Below, in pieces: positions 8,795 through 14,346 of a stretch of 48,945 nucleotides of DNA. How positions within the stretch are numbered: position 1 is the first letter of the stretch; the number at the start of each line of letters is the position of its first letter. The DNA comes from an uncultured Flammeovirgaceae bacterium. GTDB taxonomy: Bacteria > Bacteroidota > Bacteroidia > Cytophagales > MED-G16. The notes beneath the pieces are model-generated. The model saw nothing but the letters and a program-made list of their open reading frames with translations, was not told the origin of the DNA and did no database searches. The stretch lies in contig CAJXDN010000009.1 of NCBI GenBank assembly GCA_913052485.1, forward strand, positions 1 through 48,945, written 5' to 3'. The translations under genes were made by a program, and so were the position numbers.

Positions 8795-8820
8795 AAAAAA
8801 TTATTTATTAAAATAATTTG
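8795..8820 (-). terminator. Weak AT-only hairpin with T-run at the end of the DUF3089 gene
   Basis: On the minus strand AAATTATT (8820-8813) can pair with AATAATTT (8806-8799), followed by a run of T (8801-8795). It overlaps the last codons of the DUF3089 gene in the 11-base gap between convergent genes. The stem has no G:C pair, so its strength is doubtful. Confidence 0.28.
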
Positions 8821-9973
8821 TTAGTCTATCTGATAAATTTTCTCTGATATTTAACCAAAAAAAATTGTAGTCTCCAGCATGAAAACTTTCCTTCTCAAAT
8901 ATTTTTACCCATGGAATATTAAGTTCAATTAATTGTAGTGAGCCTTTGTCTGACTTAGCTTTAATTTTACTTTCATTTTTTATTTTTAATGGACCAATTG
9001 GGCGCTTTAGAACTTGATATTTGAACATCTGAAAGAAACTTGGCATTAAAATTCCTTTGTGGTCTTCCAATTTCGTAATTTGTTTATCAGATGTAAAAGA
9101 TATAGGGTTATTAGCTACTACTTTTTTGTAAACTTCATTATCATAAGGATAAAAATTATTACCGTGTGTGTTCCAAGAAACAAAACAATTTAATTGCAGT
9201 GGATTCTCACAAACTGGAAAATTTTTGAAGCTACTAGCGACTGGCATACCAATAAGATATGCTAATAATAAATTATCTCTTAATTTTCTGTCTGGTAGAA
9301 TGAGCTCCTCAATTAACCTTGCGGCATGTAGTGTGCCCTGACTGTGTGCTGCAATTATTATTTTTTTTCCTTTATTTTCTTGGTTCAAGTATGTGAGGAA
9401 AGCTCTTTTGATATCATTATATGCAACATCAAAAGATTCCTTAGCATACGACTTTAATTTATTATTTTCAAATGAAAAGAACTCTAATGATTTATTAGAA
9501 TAAATTAGATCTTTATAGTACTTAAAATTATCTTTTAGCTTTTGATCTAAAGCTATCTCCGTTAATAACTCGTTAGTACTATGATAAACTAAACCATCAT
9601 AAAAAAGTTGTCTATATAGGGGTGTATAAACATTTGTCAGTCCAGAAAATACACTAGCTTGATTTTTTAACGCAAGAGCGTCAACTCTATTTTGATGATT
9701 AAAATTTTCTGGATTGGAATTCCAAAAATTACCATTATACCCTCCATAATAGACTGTTGGATATATGTAAAAAACATCGACTTGAGATTTAAAGCTTTTT
9801 AATGAGTCAATATAATTTAAAGGCAAAGGAATTTCCTTTTTAGGGGAAGAAATCCAATTTTTAATATAATTATAGTCTGGAGCTTTTGGGAATCCCGTAT
9901 CAGAAACTAGATACCTTGTTGATGTACAATTTGACATCATAAAAATCAAAATCAAAAAATAGAATGTTCTCAT
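8801..9973 (-). CDS. DUF3089 lipoprotein, alpha/beta-hydrolase-like
   Basis: A 390-residue exported protein. It has a lipobox ending at Cys16 (MMSNC), a DVFYIYPTVYYG segment near residues 66-77 (typical DUF3089 start, vFyvhPTty), a nucleophile-elbow-like AAHSQGTLHAARL at 208-220 with Ser211, and AYLIGMPV near 238. DUF3089 proteins have an alpha/beta-hydrolase fold and are presumed esterases or lipases; Ser211 is the likely nucleophile. The closing part contains a conserved-looking FHAGDYNFFWLNIREN segment that could supply the catalytic His. It is divergent from the PHP phosphodiesterase. The natural substrate is unknown. Confidence 0.82.
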   Translation of the reverse strand: MRTFYFLILIFMMSNCTSTRYLVSDTGFPKAPDYNYIKNWISSPKKEIPLPLNYIDSLKSFKSQVDVFYIYPTVYYGGYNGNFWNSNPENFNHQNRVDALALKNQASVFSGLTNVYTPLYRQLFYDGLVYHSTNELLTEIALDQKLKDNFKYYKDLIYSNKSLEFFSFENNKLKSYAKESFDVAYNDIKRAFLTYLNQENKGKKIIIAAHSQGTLHAARLIEELILPDRKLRDNLLLAYLIGMPVASSFKNFPVCENPLQLNCFVSWNTHGNNFYPYDNEVYKKVVANNPISFTSDKQITKLEDHKGILMPSFFQMFKYQVLKRPIGPLKIKNESKIKAKSDKGSLQLIELNIPWVKIFEKESFHAGDYNFFWLNIRENLSDRLTNYFNK

Positions 9974-10029: not shown

Positions 10030-11214
10030 ATGATAAAAATCAAAGAAGTATTTCTATTGATTATTTTTTTTCTTTTCAATATCACATTATACGCACAAAC
10101 TAAAAAAAAATATGAGAGAAAGTTATTTTTTCCTGATCTCGATAACTACAAAACACTATTAACCGATTTCCACCAGCATACTGTTTTCTCAGATGGACTG
10201 GTTTGGCCCACCATAAGAGTAGAGGAAGCAGTAAAAGATGGACTAGATGCAATTTCATTAACTGATCATTTAGAGTATCAACCATTTTCAAAAGATGTCC
10301 CAAATCCAGATAGAAATAGAGTATACATAGTCGCAAAAGATTTTACCGATAGGATTAATAAAACAGTTGATAAAAAATTAATTATTATTAACGGGCAAGA
10401 AATTACAAGGTCTATGCCACCTGGCCATATAAATGCAATTTTCCTAGACGATGCTAATAAGTTATTACATCCGGACGATTCACTGAAAGGGATTGAGGAG
10501 GCAAATAAACAAAATGCATTTGTTTTTTGGAACCATCCAGGTTGGCCAGCACAAAGAAGTGATGGAATTGCCAAACTAGATGACTTTCATAGATATCTAA
10601 TTGATAAAAATTTGTTACATGGAATAGAGGTTGTCAATGAGCTATACTATTCTGAGGAGGCATTGGATATAGCTCTTAAACATAATCTTACTATAATGGG
10701 AACATCTGATATCCATGGTCTGATTGACTGGCTATTTAAGGTTCCAGATGACAACGAGTCAGAAAATAAAAATCTACCCGGTCACCGACCAATCACAATG
10801 GTATTTGCTAAAAGTAAAGATAAAAAGAGCATAAAAGAAGCTCTATTTGAGGGTAGAACTGCAGTTTTCTATAATGAAATGTTGATTGGGAAAGAAGAAT
10901 ATTTAAAACCTCTAATTGAAAAATGTTTGGTTATTAATAATGTCAACAATTTAAATTTAAGTTACTCTGAGGATGGTGAATCATCAATAAAAAAAATTGA
11001 AATAGAAAACATATCTGATGCCCCATTTTTCTTAAAAAACTTAAGTGATTTCACTTTTGAGACTAACAGTGATATTATTACAATATACCCTAATTCAAAA
11101 CATACAATTGCAGTAAGAACTAAAGGAAATAGTTTAAATGAATTAAAATTTGAGGTACTAAATGGTATTATTGCACCAAAGAAATACACTAAAATTAGTT
11201 TAATAGTTAAGTAA
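10030..11214 (+). CDS. PHP-domain phosphodiesterase (Sb-PDE-like), secreted
   Basis: A 394-residue protein with an N-terminal signal peptide (about residues 1-22, ending YAQ). A PHP metallo-phosphoesterase domain follows: DFHQHTVFSDG at 46-56 (metal ligands His48, His50, Asp55), SLTDH at 76-80, then INGQEITR near 120-127, FWNHPG near 172-177 and MGTSDIHG near 231-238. The C-terminal 110 residues are beta-rich. Flavobacterial homologues are often named Sb-PDE family phosphodiesterases, which release phosphate from phosphodiesters. It is probably periplasmic. It is the first gene of a co-directional run and ends 9 bases before the DDAH-like gene; whether the two act together is unknown. Confidence 0.78.
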   Translation: MIKIKEVFLLIIFFLFNITLYAQTKKKYERKLFFPDLDNYKTLLTDFHQHTVFSDGLVWPTIRVEEAVKDGLDAISLTDHLEYQPFSKDVPNPDRNRVYIVAKDFTDRINKTVDKKLIIINGQEITRSMPPGHINAIFLDDANKLLHPDDSLKGIEEANKQNAFVFWNHPGWPAQRSDGIAKLDDFHRYLIDKNLLHGIEVVNELYYSEEALDIALKHNLTIMGTSDIHGLIDWLFKVPDDNESENKNLPGHRPITMVFAKSKDKKSIKEALFEGRTAVFYNEMLIGKEEYLKPLIEKCLVINNVNNLNLSYSEDGESSIKKIEIENISDAPFFLKNLSDFTFETNSDIITIYPNSKHTIAVRTKGNSLNELKFEVLNGIIAPKKYTKISLIVK

Positions 11215-11223
11215 TAAAATTTA

Positions 11224-12126
11224 ATGAGTTTAAACATAAAAAATGAGACTGATCAGTTAGTCTCTGTTATATTAGGTGTTGCTAATGAAATGGTTCAAAA
11301 ACAGTCTCTGGAGGATTGTATTGACCCTAAAACAAGAGAAAATATATTAAATAACACTTTCCCAACTCAAGAAAGTTGTGTAGAAGAGATTGAAAAATTT
11401 TGTGAGGTTTTAACAAATTATAATGTTGAAGTCTTAAGACCAAATATTATCCAAAATTTAAATCAAATATTCACAAGAGATATTGGATTCGTAATTGATA
11501 ATAAACTTTTTATATCTGAGATTATTGAGCAAAGGAATACTGAGAAAGACGGAATCAAATACTTTATCGATAATCTAGACGGAGAAGAGAAAATTATGCT
11601 ACCAAACTTAATAAAGGTAGAGGGAGGAGATGTGATAGTTCACAATGAGTTTTTATTTATAGGCTACAGTAATAGTAATTTAAAGGTATCGAGGACAACA
11701 TCAGAAAGTATTAAATATTTTCAAGATCACTTTCCTAATAAAGAGGTAATAGGGTTTGAAATGATTAAAGATGATACAAACCCCTATGAAAGTATCCTTC
11801 ATCTAGACTGTGCGATGCAACCTGTTGGCAAAGATAAAATAATAATATATGAAGAAGGATTTGAAAATATTGATGACATAAAAAAAATTATCAAAATTTT
11901 TGGGAAGCAAAATTTAATATTTATTGATAAGAAGGAAATGTATGAAGGAAATTCAAATATCTTTTCAATAAATGAGGAAATTGTAGTTTCAGACCCAACG
12001 TTTACTAGATTAAATAATATTTTAAAAGACCATAAAATTATAACTGAAAAAATATACTACAGAGAAATATCTAAATTTGGTGGATTATTTAGATGTTCTA
12101 CTTTACCAATAAAAAGAAAGCAATAA
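11224..12126 (+). CDS. Dimethylarginine dimethylaminohydrolase-like guanidino hydrolase
   Basis: A 300-residue member of the amidinotransferase/arginine-deiminase fold (GME superfamily). Visible are FTRDIGFVI at residues 83-91, EGGDVIV at 133-139, the catalytic-His region LHLDCAMQPVGKD at 192-204 (His193), and the C-terminal nucleophile loop FGGLFRCSTLPI at 285-296 (Cys291). These match arginine-deiminase-related and DDAH enzymes, which release citrulline or ornithine from arginine derivatives. The substrate is not determined. CtlX, a second enzyme of the same superfamily, lies downstream, with only a recombinase gene between. No signal peptide is present, so it acts in the cytosol. Confidence 0.8.
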   Translation: MSLNIKNETDQLVSVILGVANEMVQKQSLEDCIDPKTRENILNNTFPTQESCVEEIEKFCEVLTNYNVEVLRPNIIQNLNQIFTRDIGFVIDNKLFISEIIEQRNTEKDGIKYFIDNLDGEEKIMLPNLIKVEGGDVIVHNEFLFIGYSNSNLKVSRTTSESIKYFQDHFPNKEVIGFEMIKDDTNPYESILHLDCAMQPVGKDKIIIYEEGFENIDDIKKIIKIFGKQNLIFIDKKEMYEGNSNIFSINEEIVVSDPTFTRLNNILKDHKIITEKIYYREISKFGGLFRCSTLPIKRKQ

Positions 12127-12167
12127 AACATATTCATAATTAAAATTTAATATATATTTACATCACT

Positions 12168-12193
12168 TTATAGGATACAACATAGGATACATT
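12168..12193 (+). repeat. Left AGGATACA direct repeats (two copies, 12-base period)
   Basis: AGGATACA occurs at 12172-12179 and 12184-12191, inside two 12-base units that begin ATAGGATACA, directly before the recombinase ATG at 12194. A 10-base string TTATAGGATA (12168-12177) recurs exactly at 13314-13323 at the other end of the gene. One-helical-turn direct repeats beside an integrase gene resemble arm-type integrase binding sites. The AGGA of the second copy is also positioned to act as a ribosome-binding site. Confidence 0.6.
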
Positions 12194-13366
12194 ATGGTAA
12201 TTCAGCTCTGGAAGAGAAAGAACTATAGTAAAACAAAGTATAGCCTATACCTCAGGTACAGAATAAATCAAAACAAGGCAAAAGTTGAAAGTTTAAAACT
12301 TTGGGAGTGGATTAATCCTCAAAATGATATTCAAAAAATTCATAATGAAGAGGTAAGAGTTAGTTGTAAAGAAATTGTTCGAAGGGCTAAAGATGATTTA
12401 GAAAATAATAGGTCATCTATTAAACTTGAAGAACCCAAAACATACCAGTTTAAAAACTTATTCTACAAATTTTCGAATATTCATAATACGAATGCTGTAT
12501 TTAATTTTATAAAAACAATAGATGAGCAAGTAGAAACTATAAGCATAAAAAAAATAAATCAAAAACTATTAGAATCATTAAAAAACAAGATAGAGGAAAG
12601 GATCCAGTCAAAAGATATTAAAGGAAGCACAGCCTCAAAGTACTGGAACAACTTTAAAAGCGTCCTTATAAACCTCAATAAATTAAAACTTTGTAAATAT
12701 CCAAAAGCCCGGGGTATAACTTACATAGACGAAAAAAAATCTGTAAAAGTGTTTTACGATCGTGAAATTGAGAAAATTAAGAGCTCAAACACACAAAAAA
12801 ATATCTTAAAAAATCCATTTCTATTTTCATGTTACACAGGCACCAAATTAAAGATAATTGAGCAGCTAAAATGGGAAAATATTAAGAGGAATAAAGATAA
12901 GATATACTTTCTTGACATTAGATATGGTAACAAAAAATATATAATTCCTTTTAAGAAAGAGATAAGAAAATTATTAGGAAAAAGGAAGAAAGACGAAAAT
13001 TATGTTTTTAAACTGATTAAGTCTAAGAAGAATATGTCAAAAGAGTTTTATAAGCTTCTAAAAGATAGTAACGTTGACACAAGCAAAAAATATTCTGATG
13101 CGATTAACACTTTTGTTATGAAAACTTATAAAAAAACAAAGAATATTTATTTAATATCATCTATAATCGGTCATAGTTCAATTAAGAAAACTAAAAGAAC
13201 TTATACTTACATGAATGAAGAAGACTACATTGATAAATTATATAATTTGAACATCAACAAAGACACGAAGACTGAGAAGAAGAAACAGAAAACACTATTT
13301 AAAAGGGGTAACCTTATAGGATATAGGAAGGATACACAAAAGGATACAGTAGTAAAAAATACATAA
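12194..13366 (+). CDS. Degenerate tyrosine recombinase (phage-integrase family)
   Basis: A 390-residue, very lysine-rich protein with the three-part layout of Bacteroidota tyrosine recombinases. An arm-DNA-binding N-terminus covers residues 1-75 (SLYLRYRINQNK...). A SAM-like core-binding region covers about 85-175. A catalytic domain follows, with CYTGTKLKIIEQLKWENI at 213-230 and IIGHSSIKKTKRTYTYM at 324-340. His327 and candidate nucleophile Tyr337 are present. The box I arginine is Lys218 (TGTK for TGLR), and the H-x-x-R box is Y-x-x-A (Tyr300, Ala303). The Tyr is also one residue further from GH than usual. It may be inactive or strongly divergent. No cargo gene or excisionase adjoins it. 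Confidence 0.78.
   Translation: MVIQLWKRKNYSKTKYSLYLRYRINQNKAKVESLKLWEWINPQNDIQKIHNEEVRVSCKEIVRRAKDDLENNRSSIKLEEPKTYQFKNLFYKFSNIHNTNAVFNFIKTIDEQVETISIKKINQKLLESLKNKIEERIQSKDIKGSTASKYWNNFKSVLINLNKLKLCKYPKARGITYIDEKKSVKVFYDREIEKIKSSNTQKNILKNPFLFSCYTGTKLKIIEQLKWENIKRNKDKIYFLDIRYGNKKYIIPFKKEIRKLLGKRKKDENYVFKLIKSKKNMSKEFYKLLKDSNVDTSKKYSDAINTFVMKTYKKTKNIYLISSIIGHSSIKKTKRTYTYMNEEDYIDKLYNLNINKDTKTEKKKQKTLFKRGNLIGYRKDTQKDTVVKNT
13314..13348 (+). repeat. Right AGGATACA direct repeats (three copies, 11-12-base period)
   Basis: AGGATATA at 13318-13325 and AGGATACA at 13329-13336 and 13341-13348 lie in the same orientation as the left set, near the 3' end of the recombinase gene. There they encode the odd C-terminal tail RKDTQKDT. 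With the left pair they bracket about 1.15 kb. The first copy is within TTATAGGATA, an exact repeat of 12168-12177. The arrangement suggests recombinase binding sites or element ends. Confidence 0.6.
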
Positions 13367-13413: not shown

Positions 13414-14346
13414 ATGATTCACACTACATCTAATCTAATTATGATAAGACCTAAACATTTCAATTATAACGTTGAGACAGCGGGAAGTAATTTCTTTCAG
13501 AAGAGAATAGATAAGTTATCACAAATACAAATTAAAAAAAAATCAGTAACAGAGTTTAATCAACTAGTAAAGATATTAAATGAAAATAATGTCGATATAG
13601 ATATTTACGATGATAAGGAGGGCATTATAACGACTGACAGTATTTTTCCTAATAACTGGTTTTCTCTTCACACAGATGGGAGCTTATATTTATACCCAAT
13701 GTTTTCAAAAAATAGAAGAAAGGAGAGAAGAGAAGATATAATCACAGATCTACAGAAAAGATATAGTGTTAAAAACATTATTGACCTAACATCATATGAA
13801 AAAGAAAATAAATTTCTAGAAGGAACGGGTAGCATGGTCTTTGATAGAAAAAATAAGATATGCTACGCATCAATATCAGAAAGAACTGATAAAACTCTAA
13901 TCGAAATCGTCTGTGATAATTTGGGATTCCAGAAAAAACTATTCAGCTCATATCAATCAATCAATAATAGAAGACAATTAATTTATCACACAAATGTGAT
14001 AATGAACATCGCCGAAGATTATGCGATAATATGCCTGGATTCTATTGATGACAAGATAGATAGAAATATGGTGGTTAATTCCTTAATAGACTCCGGAAAA
14101 AAAATCATTGAGATATCAGAAGATCAGTTAAATAATTTTGCGGGAAATATGTTACAGGTTAAAAATAAAAAAGATGAAAAATTATTGGTAATGAGCAAAT
14201 GTGCATACAAAAGTTTACAATTAAGTCAGGTAGAGTTAATTGAGTCATTTAATAAGATAATATATAGTAACTTAGATACAATTGAGACCCTTGGAGGGGG
14301 TAGCGCTAGATGTATGTTAGCTGAAAATTTTTTAGAGAAGAAATAA
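13414..14346 (+). CDS. ctlX: Citrulline utilization hydrolase-type amidinotransferase-fold protein CtlX
   Basis: A 310-residue guanidino-modifying-superfamily protein. It begins with IMIRPKHFNYN (residues 9-19), then TDSIFPNNWFSLH at 74-86 (Asp75, FPNNW), FLEGTGSMVFDR at 134-145, the catalytic-His segment YHTNVIM at 191-197, and GGGSARCMLAE at 294-304 with nucleophile Cys300. This order is that of CtlX, described as hydrolysing citrulline to ornithine in Francisella and common in flavobacteria. It lies downstream of a DDAH-like enzyme and just upstream of RidA, consistent with arginine/citrulline breakdown. No ornithine aminotransferase is in the window. It is the best-supported enzyme of the module. 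Confidence 0.85.
   Translation: MIHTTSNLIMIRPKHFNYNVETAGSNFFQKRIDKLSQIQIKKKSVTEFNQLVKILNENNVDIDIYDDKEGIITTDSIFPNNWFSLHTDGSLYLYPMFSKNRRKERREDIITDLQKRYSVKNIIDLTSYEKENKFLEGTGSMVFDRKNKICYASISERTDKTLIEIVCDNLGFQKKLFSSYQSINNRRQLIYHTNVIMNIAEDYAIICLDSIDDKIDRNMVVNSLIDSGKKIIEISEDQLNNFAGNMLQVKNKKDEKLLVMSKCAYKSLQLSQVELIESFNKIIYSNLDTIETLGGGSARCMLAENFLEKK

Follow-up and report, generated by a model that had tools for sequence, protein, structure and literature searches.

MrpR (YopR) of B. subtilis SPbeta has lost its recombinase residues and acts as a DNA-binding repressor (PMC10516654). It is the closest functional precedent for the protein that we describe here, which also has a tyrosine-recombinase fold with the catalytic residues lost; judged by sequence and by structural model, the two share a recombinase fold together with an active site that appears non-functional. 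MrpR is phage-borne, consists of core-binding and catalytic domains only and has operators at several places in the prophage, whereas our protein is chromosomal, keeps an arm-binding domain and has just two site pairs, one at each end of its gene. Instead of an SPbeta-like prophage with scattered operators, we find a housekeeping chromosomal neighbourhood with two site pairs per genome. The nearest relatives by sequence are the IntCTnDOT-type integrases of Bacteroidota, with a homologous arm-binding domain (Arm-DNA-bind_5). These recombine the att sites of mobile elements, while our protein has lost the H, the R2 and the placement of the Tyr, and lies outside any recognisable element. The R1 residue is weakly conserved in the IntCTnDOT subgroup too (PMC8138268). 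In the IntS integrase of prophage KplE1, the att arms overlap the integrase promoter, which results in negative autoregulation (PMC2951348). Like IntS, our gene has arm-type sites at its likely promoter region; IntS, however, recombines actively and has att core sites, whereas we recognise no core site here and find another conserved pair at the 3' end. Finally, TnsF of the Tn6022-like (Tn7-like) transposons has an inactivated tyrosine recombinase domain used in sequence-specific DNA targeting (PMC10293859). Unlike our protein, TnsF has a zinc-finger N-terminus, is part of a transposon and directs insertion into comM.

The locus lies in the window, by which we mean the whole stretch of 48,945 nucleotides that was analysed. 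In Table 1, we give the coordinates of its features. The pair AGGATAC-N5-AGGATACA, with a 12-bp period, occurs once at the start codon of the recombinase gene and once at its stop codon. The explanation that best accounts for the sequences, and that we consider probable, is that an integrase, passed on vertically and no longer catalytic, was exapted to bind DNA locally; its most likely role is that of an autorepressor, perhaps one that also acts on the neighbouring ctlX gene.

Table 1. Features of the recombinase locus, in window coordinates.
Feature	Coordinates	Strand	Basis
Arginine-deiminase-like gene (ADI), upstream neighbour	11224..12126	+	PF02274, E=2.1e-9; syntenic at all orthologous loci
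Left site pair, AGGATACA-ACAT-AGGATACA	12172..12191	+	GGATAC twice at a 12-bp period in 14/14 orthologs
Degenerate arm-binding-domain tyrosine recombinase, 390 aa	12194..13366	+	PF00589, E=3e-5; predicted arm-binding, core-binding and catalytic fold
N-terminal arm-binding-type domain, residues 1-75	12194..12418	+	hhalign; most conserved part; strand-strand-strand-helix prediction
Catalytic-fold domain with lost active site, residues 181-345	12734..13228	+	Alignment with active-type Bacteroidota integrases and the genomes' own XerC/XerD
C-terminal tail LFKRGNLIGY	13295..13324	+	Conserved as protein (codon usage varies); disordered in the model
Right site pair, AGGATACA-CAAA-AGGATACA	13329..13348	+	GGATAC twice in 14/14 orthologs
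ctlX (citrulline utilization hydrolase), downstream neighbour, possible second target	13414..14346	+	NF046062 above curated cut-off; syntenic throughout

Gene order and ancestry of the locus

A first search, of 59 relatives, returned one strong homolog for each sampled member of the genus and for two of the three family members outside it, and a family-wide search found orthologs in 14 of the 15 family genomes, one per genome. The fifteenth genome is 61% complete and also without ctlX, so its missing recombinase says nothing. The other 13 orthologs are 38-63% identical to the window recombinase, and the named records amongst them are uncultured marine Cytophagales (Marinoscillum sp., Flammeovirgaceae and MED-G19 assemblies). 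The next matches beyond the family are ordinary Bacteroidota integrases, with E-values of about 1e-33 versus below 1e-140 for the orthologs. The nearest non-family integrases that we checked all have a canonical H-R box and an R1 box with the arginine, and no AGGATAC pairs are found near them.

The gene order ADI-REC-ctlX-RidA-GltX is the same at all 14 orthologous loci, that is, at one fixed position in three genera. We searched the 14 assemblies for alleles in which the gene is deleted or rearranged, the former being a check that the first-pass annotation had proposed, and found none within the family. In two larger-genome Cytophagales from outside the family, ADI sits next to ctlX with about 31-40 bp between them and no recombinase, and these empty junctions are consistent with an ancestral insertion of the recombinase gene. 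The recombinase tree broadly follows the ctlX and gltX trees, L090 excepted. L090 is a mosaic in which the ADI gene and the first ~150 recombinase residues resemble another lineage: its ADI is L095/L097-like, and the N-terminal half of the recombinase likewise resembles that clade. It is the only mosaic allele found, and a site-specific exchange at the pairs was considered for it and rejected, as the crossover is inside the gene near residue 150 and points to ordinary homologous recombination. The ADI-like gene itself occurs as deeply diverged alleles swapped among close relatives (L094 vs L097: 57% for ADI, 91% for GltX and RidA). For the PHP-type gene upstream of ADI (10030-11214 in the window), the neighbourhood fetched for the L094-L098 clade gives no match; there, the gene corresponding to window positions 8801-9973 directly adjoins ADI.

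It is improbable, although less so than the other alternatives below, that the protein marks the locus or organises the chromosome by binding the site cluster at its own gene, in the manner of a centromere or terminus system. That the site cluster is unique in each genome and the protein near-universal in the family would fit such a role, but no ParA-like neighbour is apparent in the syntenic block, and dimer resolution is covered by canonical XerC and XerD, encoded by separate genes elsewhere in the genomes. The GC skew near the locus tracks how the local genes are oriented and reverts within about 25 kb, with no clear terminus or origin on these short contigs. We rejected on these grounds both a terminus or origin marker and an Xer-type dimer-resolution system.

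The first-pass annotation had offered, as one of two readings, that the repeats are the ends of a minimal mobile element without cargo. In the form of a still or recently active single-gene element that excises and integrates, with the pairs as its ends (arm sites), we give this reading very little credence. An element of this kind should have a variable position or empty sites among close relatives, and we observe the same neighbours at 14 loci and no empty allele within the family. The gene tree broadly agrees with those of ctlX and GltX, and the family genomes contain neither another copy of the gene nor another site pair as good as these two. Thirteen of the 14 orthologs have lost essential catalytic residues. 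If the direct pairs recombined, the gene would be deleted, and no such deletion is seen. A search for a donor element in viral contigs found no encoded relative; the pattern has four single matches there, with no related gene in the stretches fetched. Set against this are the integrase ancestry of the window protein, the matching direct pairs at both ends of the gene, the empty ADI-ctlX junctions outside the family, and the g2 ortholog (L014), which retains the H, the R2, the second H and the Tyr. For g1 and g3 we regard the mobile element as largely refuted.

A recombinase fold and its active site

By hhalign, the N-terminal domain matches the N-termini of PF17293-bearing (Arm-DNA-bind_5) integrases (93%, E=2.8e-7). 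There is no direct Pfam call of Arm-DNA-bind_5 (PF17293) in the window protein, and when the arm domain was modelled by itself, a fold search gave no confident match. Among the orthologs, 26 of the 75 columns of this domain are invariant. An AlphaFold2 model built from 14 sequences has a strand-strand-strand-helix unit (residues 2-70), a helical core-binding domain, a catalytic-fold domain and a disordered tail; for the full length, the confidence is moderate (pTM 0.50). It matches the lambda, Tn1549, HP1 and Xer recombinases, with Z 15.4 and rmsd 2.4 over 147 residues for the catalytic domain against HP1 Int, and Z 14.7 and rmsd 5.0 over 251 against Tn1549 Int. The MrpR/YopR and SroF (phi3T) structures align at lower Z (10-11 over 224-238 residues) and with large rmsd (5.8-17). 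By homology, the N-terminal domain and the core-binding plus catalytic fold place the protein with the IntCTnDOT-like arm-binding-domain tyrosine recombinases.

Counting methods put dN/dS at about 0.1-0.3 over the whole gene and at about 0.05-0.23 within the arm-binding domain. The protein thus evolves under purifying selection, and most strongly so in this domain. By the low dN/dS and the invariant arm columns, it is maintained even though catalysis is not. The C-terminal tail reads LFK(K/R)GNLLSY across the orthologs, with conservation at the protein level and varying codons; in the window, the tail region includes most of the private copy AGGATATA.

In the window protein, the catalytic positions are occupied by K218 (R1), S301 (H), I304 (R2), H327 and T336, the last at the canonical Tyr position, with Y337 next to it. 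As aligned, the protein does not present the R-K-H-R-H/W pentad and Tyr nucleophile of a functional tyrosine recombinase. R1 is Lys in 12 orthologs, Ser in L014 and unreadable in one. In 13 of the 14, one of S, R, D, N, K, G, A and V stands in for the His of the HxxR motif, Ile or Val takes the place of R2, and the canonical Tyr position has other residues; a Tyr follows one residue later, except in L006, where it is Phe. L012 and L013 have Asp in place of the second His. The g2 ortholog L014 lacks only R1, a loss that the CTnDOT integrase tolerates (see below), and might still recombine.

These substitutions bear on a further reading, that of a recombinase with an unorthodox active site (a Lys for R1 and the Tyr shifted by one residue) that reversibly switches its own C-terminus. 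It would agree with the presence of a Tyr one residue past the canonical position in 13 of the 14 orthologs, with the conservation of K218 in g1 and g3, and with the CTnDOT integrase, in which another arginine makes up for a lost R1 (PMC8138268). But R2 is Ile or Val, any of eight residues may stand for the HxxR His, one ortholog has Phe for the later Tyr and two have Asp for the second His, so that no set of residues is retained in the way that catalysis would require. An excision switch built into the gene, in which recombination between the TTATAGGATA repeats changes the C-terminus, had been suggested from the window alone. The second TTATAGGATA copy is private to the window genome and the repeat is within chance, and there is no deletion or rearranged allele among the 14 assemblies. 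We therefore rejected excision between these repeats, and place the reading of an unorthodox active site marginally below the mobile element in likelihood.

Paired sites at both ends of the gene

A string check of the window locates AGGATACA at 12172, 12184, 13329 and 13341, all on the plus strand, AGGATATA at 13318, and TTATAGGATA at 12168 and 13314, all exactly where the first-pass annotation had put them. TTATAGGATA does not survive as a meaningful repeat. It pairs the true first left copy with the private third right-hand copy AGGATATA, it reaches at least two copies in 11 of 100 shuffles, and it is not conserved in the orthologs. Repeats on both sides of the gene are conserved for the left pair and for the right pair at 13329 and 13341, but the third right-hand copy is not found in the orthologs of other genomes.

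In contrast, repeats around orthologous recombinases, another of the checks proposed, are present throughout: both pairs occur in the same orientation and at the exact 12-bp period in 14/14 orthologs. The GGATAC core is identical in 56 of 56 copies, and over the twelve core columns of each pair the pairwise identity averages 1.00. In the non-coding flanks, taken as 45 bp on each outer side, it is 0.44 before the left pair and 0.46 after the right pair versus the 0.40 expected from base composition, and we count these flanks as saturated. The left pair ends 2 bp ahead of the ATG and begins 45-49 bp from the stop codon of the upstream gene in 14/14; for this interval (12127-12171 in the window), the length is kept in all 14 genomes and the sequence is saturated. 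The distance from the right pair to codon 1 of ctlX is 57-70 bp. That the right repeats lie inside the coding sequence holds for the window, where they are within the 3' end of the gene, and for L002, but in most orthologs a TAG stop codon overlaps the second copy, and in L007 and L010 the pair is past the stop. The bases of the right pair stay the same although the residues that they encode and the stop codon change; the pair is therefore conserved as DNA. A readthrough of the in-frame TAG was considered and discarded; the TAG is a real stop, and the alignment had run on through the repeat. In L007, an imperfect copy, AAGATACA, is added as a third to the right site (about 2637-2667 in gene orientation; G009:C26:14847-14879) and keeps to the 12-bp period.

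Single copies of the motif are common. The window has 7 copies of AGGATACA versus 1.6 expected (7 is reached in none of 100 shuffles), and the 1.19-Mb genome has 48 versus 25 for the reversed control, such that only the pair is informative. The worry that the motif might be frequent elsewhere thus applies to single copies and not to the pair: with at most one mismatch, AGGATACN5AGGATAC occurs three times in the 1.19-Mb genome, two of them at the recombinase locus. In a scan of 390 genomes of the order, the exact pair pattern has 24 occurrences in 14 family genomes and 5, all single, in 375 other genomes. The remaining family pairs differ from it by one base. With a profile built from 27 sites, nothing else in the family genomes searched scores comparably.

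The reading of the repeats as functionless left-overs, with the left copy a ribosome-binding AGGA, as the annotation had cautioned for the second left copy, and the right copies coding KDT codons, has in its favour the Shine-Dalgarno distance of that copy from the start codon and the abundance of single AGGATACA copies, but it is already refuted by conservation as judged from the alignments, given that the full GGATAC is invariant in four copies amid saturated flanks, the upstream left copy is too distant for a ribosome-binding site, the right pair is kept even on or past the stop codon, and pairs are not predicted by the single-motif frequency. The proposal of arm-type binding sites, on the other hand, gains support from the arm-binding-type domain at the N-terminus together with the invariant 12-bp-spaced pairs at all orthologs.

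Possible mode of action

For the preferred reading of an exapted integrase, we propose the following course of events. The protein would originate from a Bacteroidota-type mobile-element integrase with an arm-binding domain, whose entry between the ADI gene and ctlX would predate the split of the known genera of the family, with vertical inheritance since. The arm-binding domain may bind one monomer per AGGATAC repeat, which would place two monomers side by side on each pair. As the left pair probably lies at the transcription start, the ribosome-binding site and the start codon, the bound protein would repress its own gene. A promoter-like TAnnTTTR upstream of the left pair is weakly enriched (8 of 14 orthologs vs 4.4 expected; reached by 41 of 1000 shuffles). 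At the right pair, the bound protein could modulate readthrough into ctlX, or a ctlX promoter, and both pairs could possibly be joined in a loop of ~1.15 kb.

We hold these components with different confidence. That this is an exapted, non-recombining DNA-binding protein appears highly likely from the sequences. By analogy with the systems above, we lean towards negative autoregulation by the recombinase-derived protein. We infer an effect on ctlX more hesitantly, and think it somewhat doubtful; looping between both pairs seems rather unlikely. A more elaborate version, in which the integrase turned into a housekeeping regulator of the chromosome, arm-type sites were kept as operators while the active site decayed, and the bound ends loop and insulate the gene within the arginine/citrulline hydrolase cluster and control ctlX, we consider similarly unlikely. 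No other genomic target is found in the family genomes searched, either with the paired motif or with the 27-site profile, so the regulator would serve its own locus only, a point against the reading.

If correct, this would be a chromosomal, non-phage recombinase turned DNA binder that retains both the arm-binding domain and the paired sites. At one locus and with the same DNA sites, we find a near-complete active site in g2 and fully decayed ones in g1 and g3, so that the change from enzyme to binding protein can be tested stepwise.
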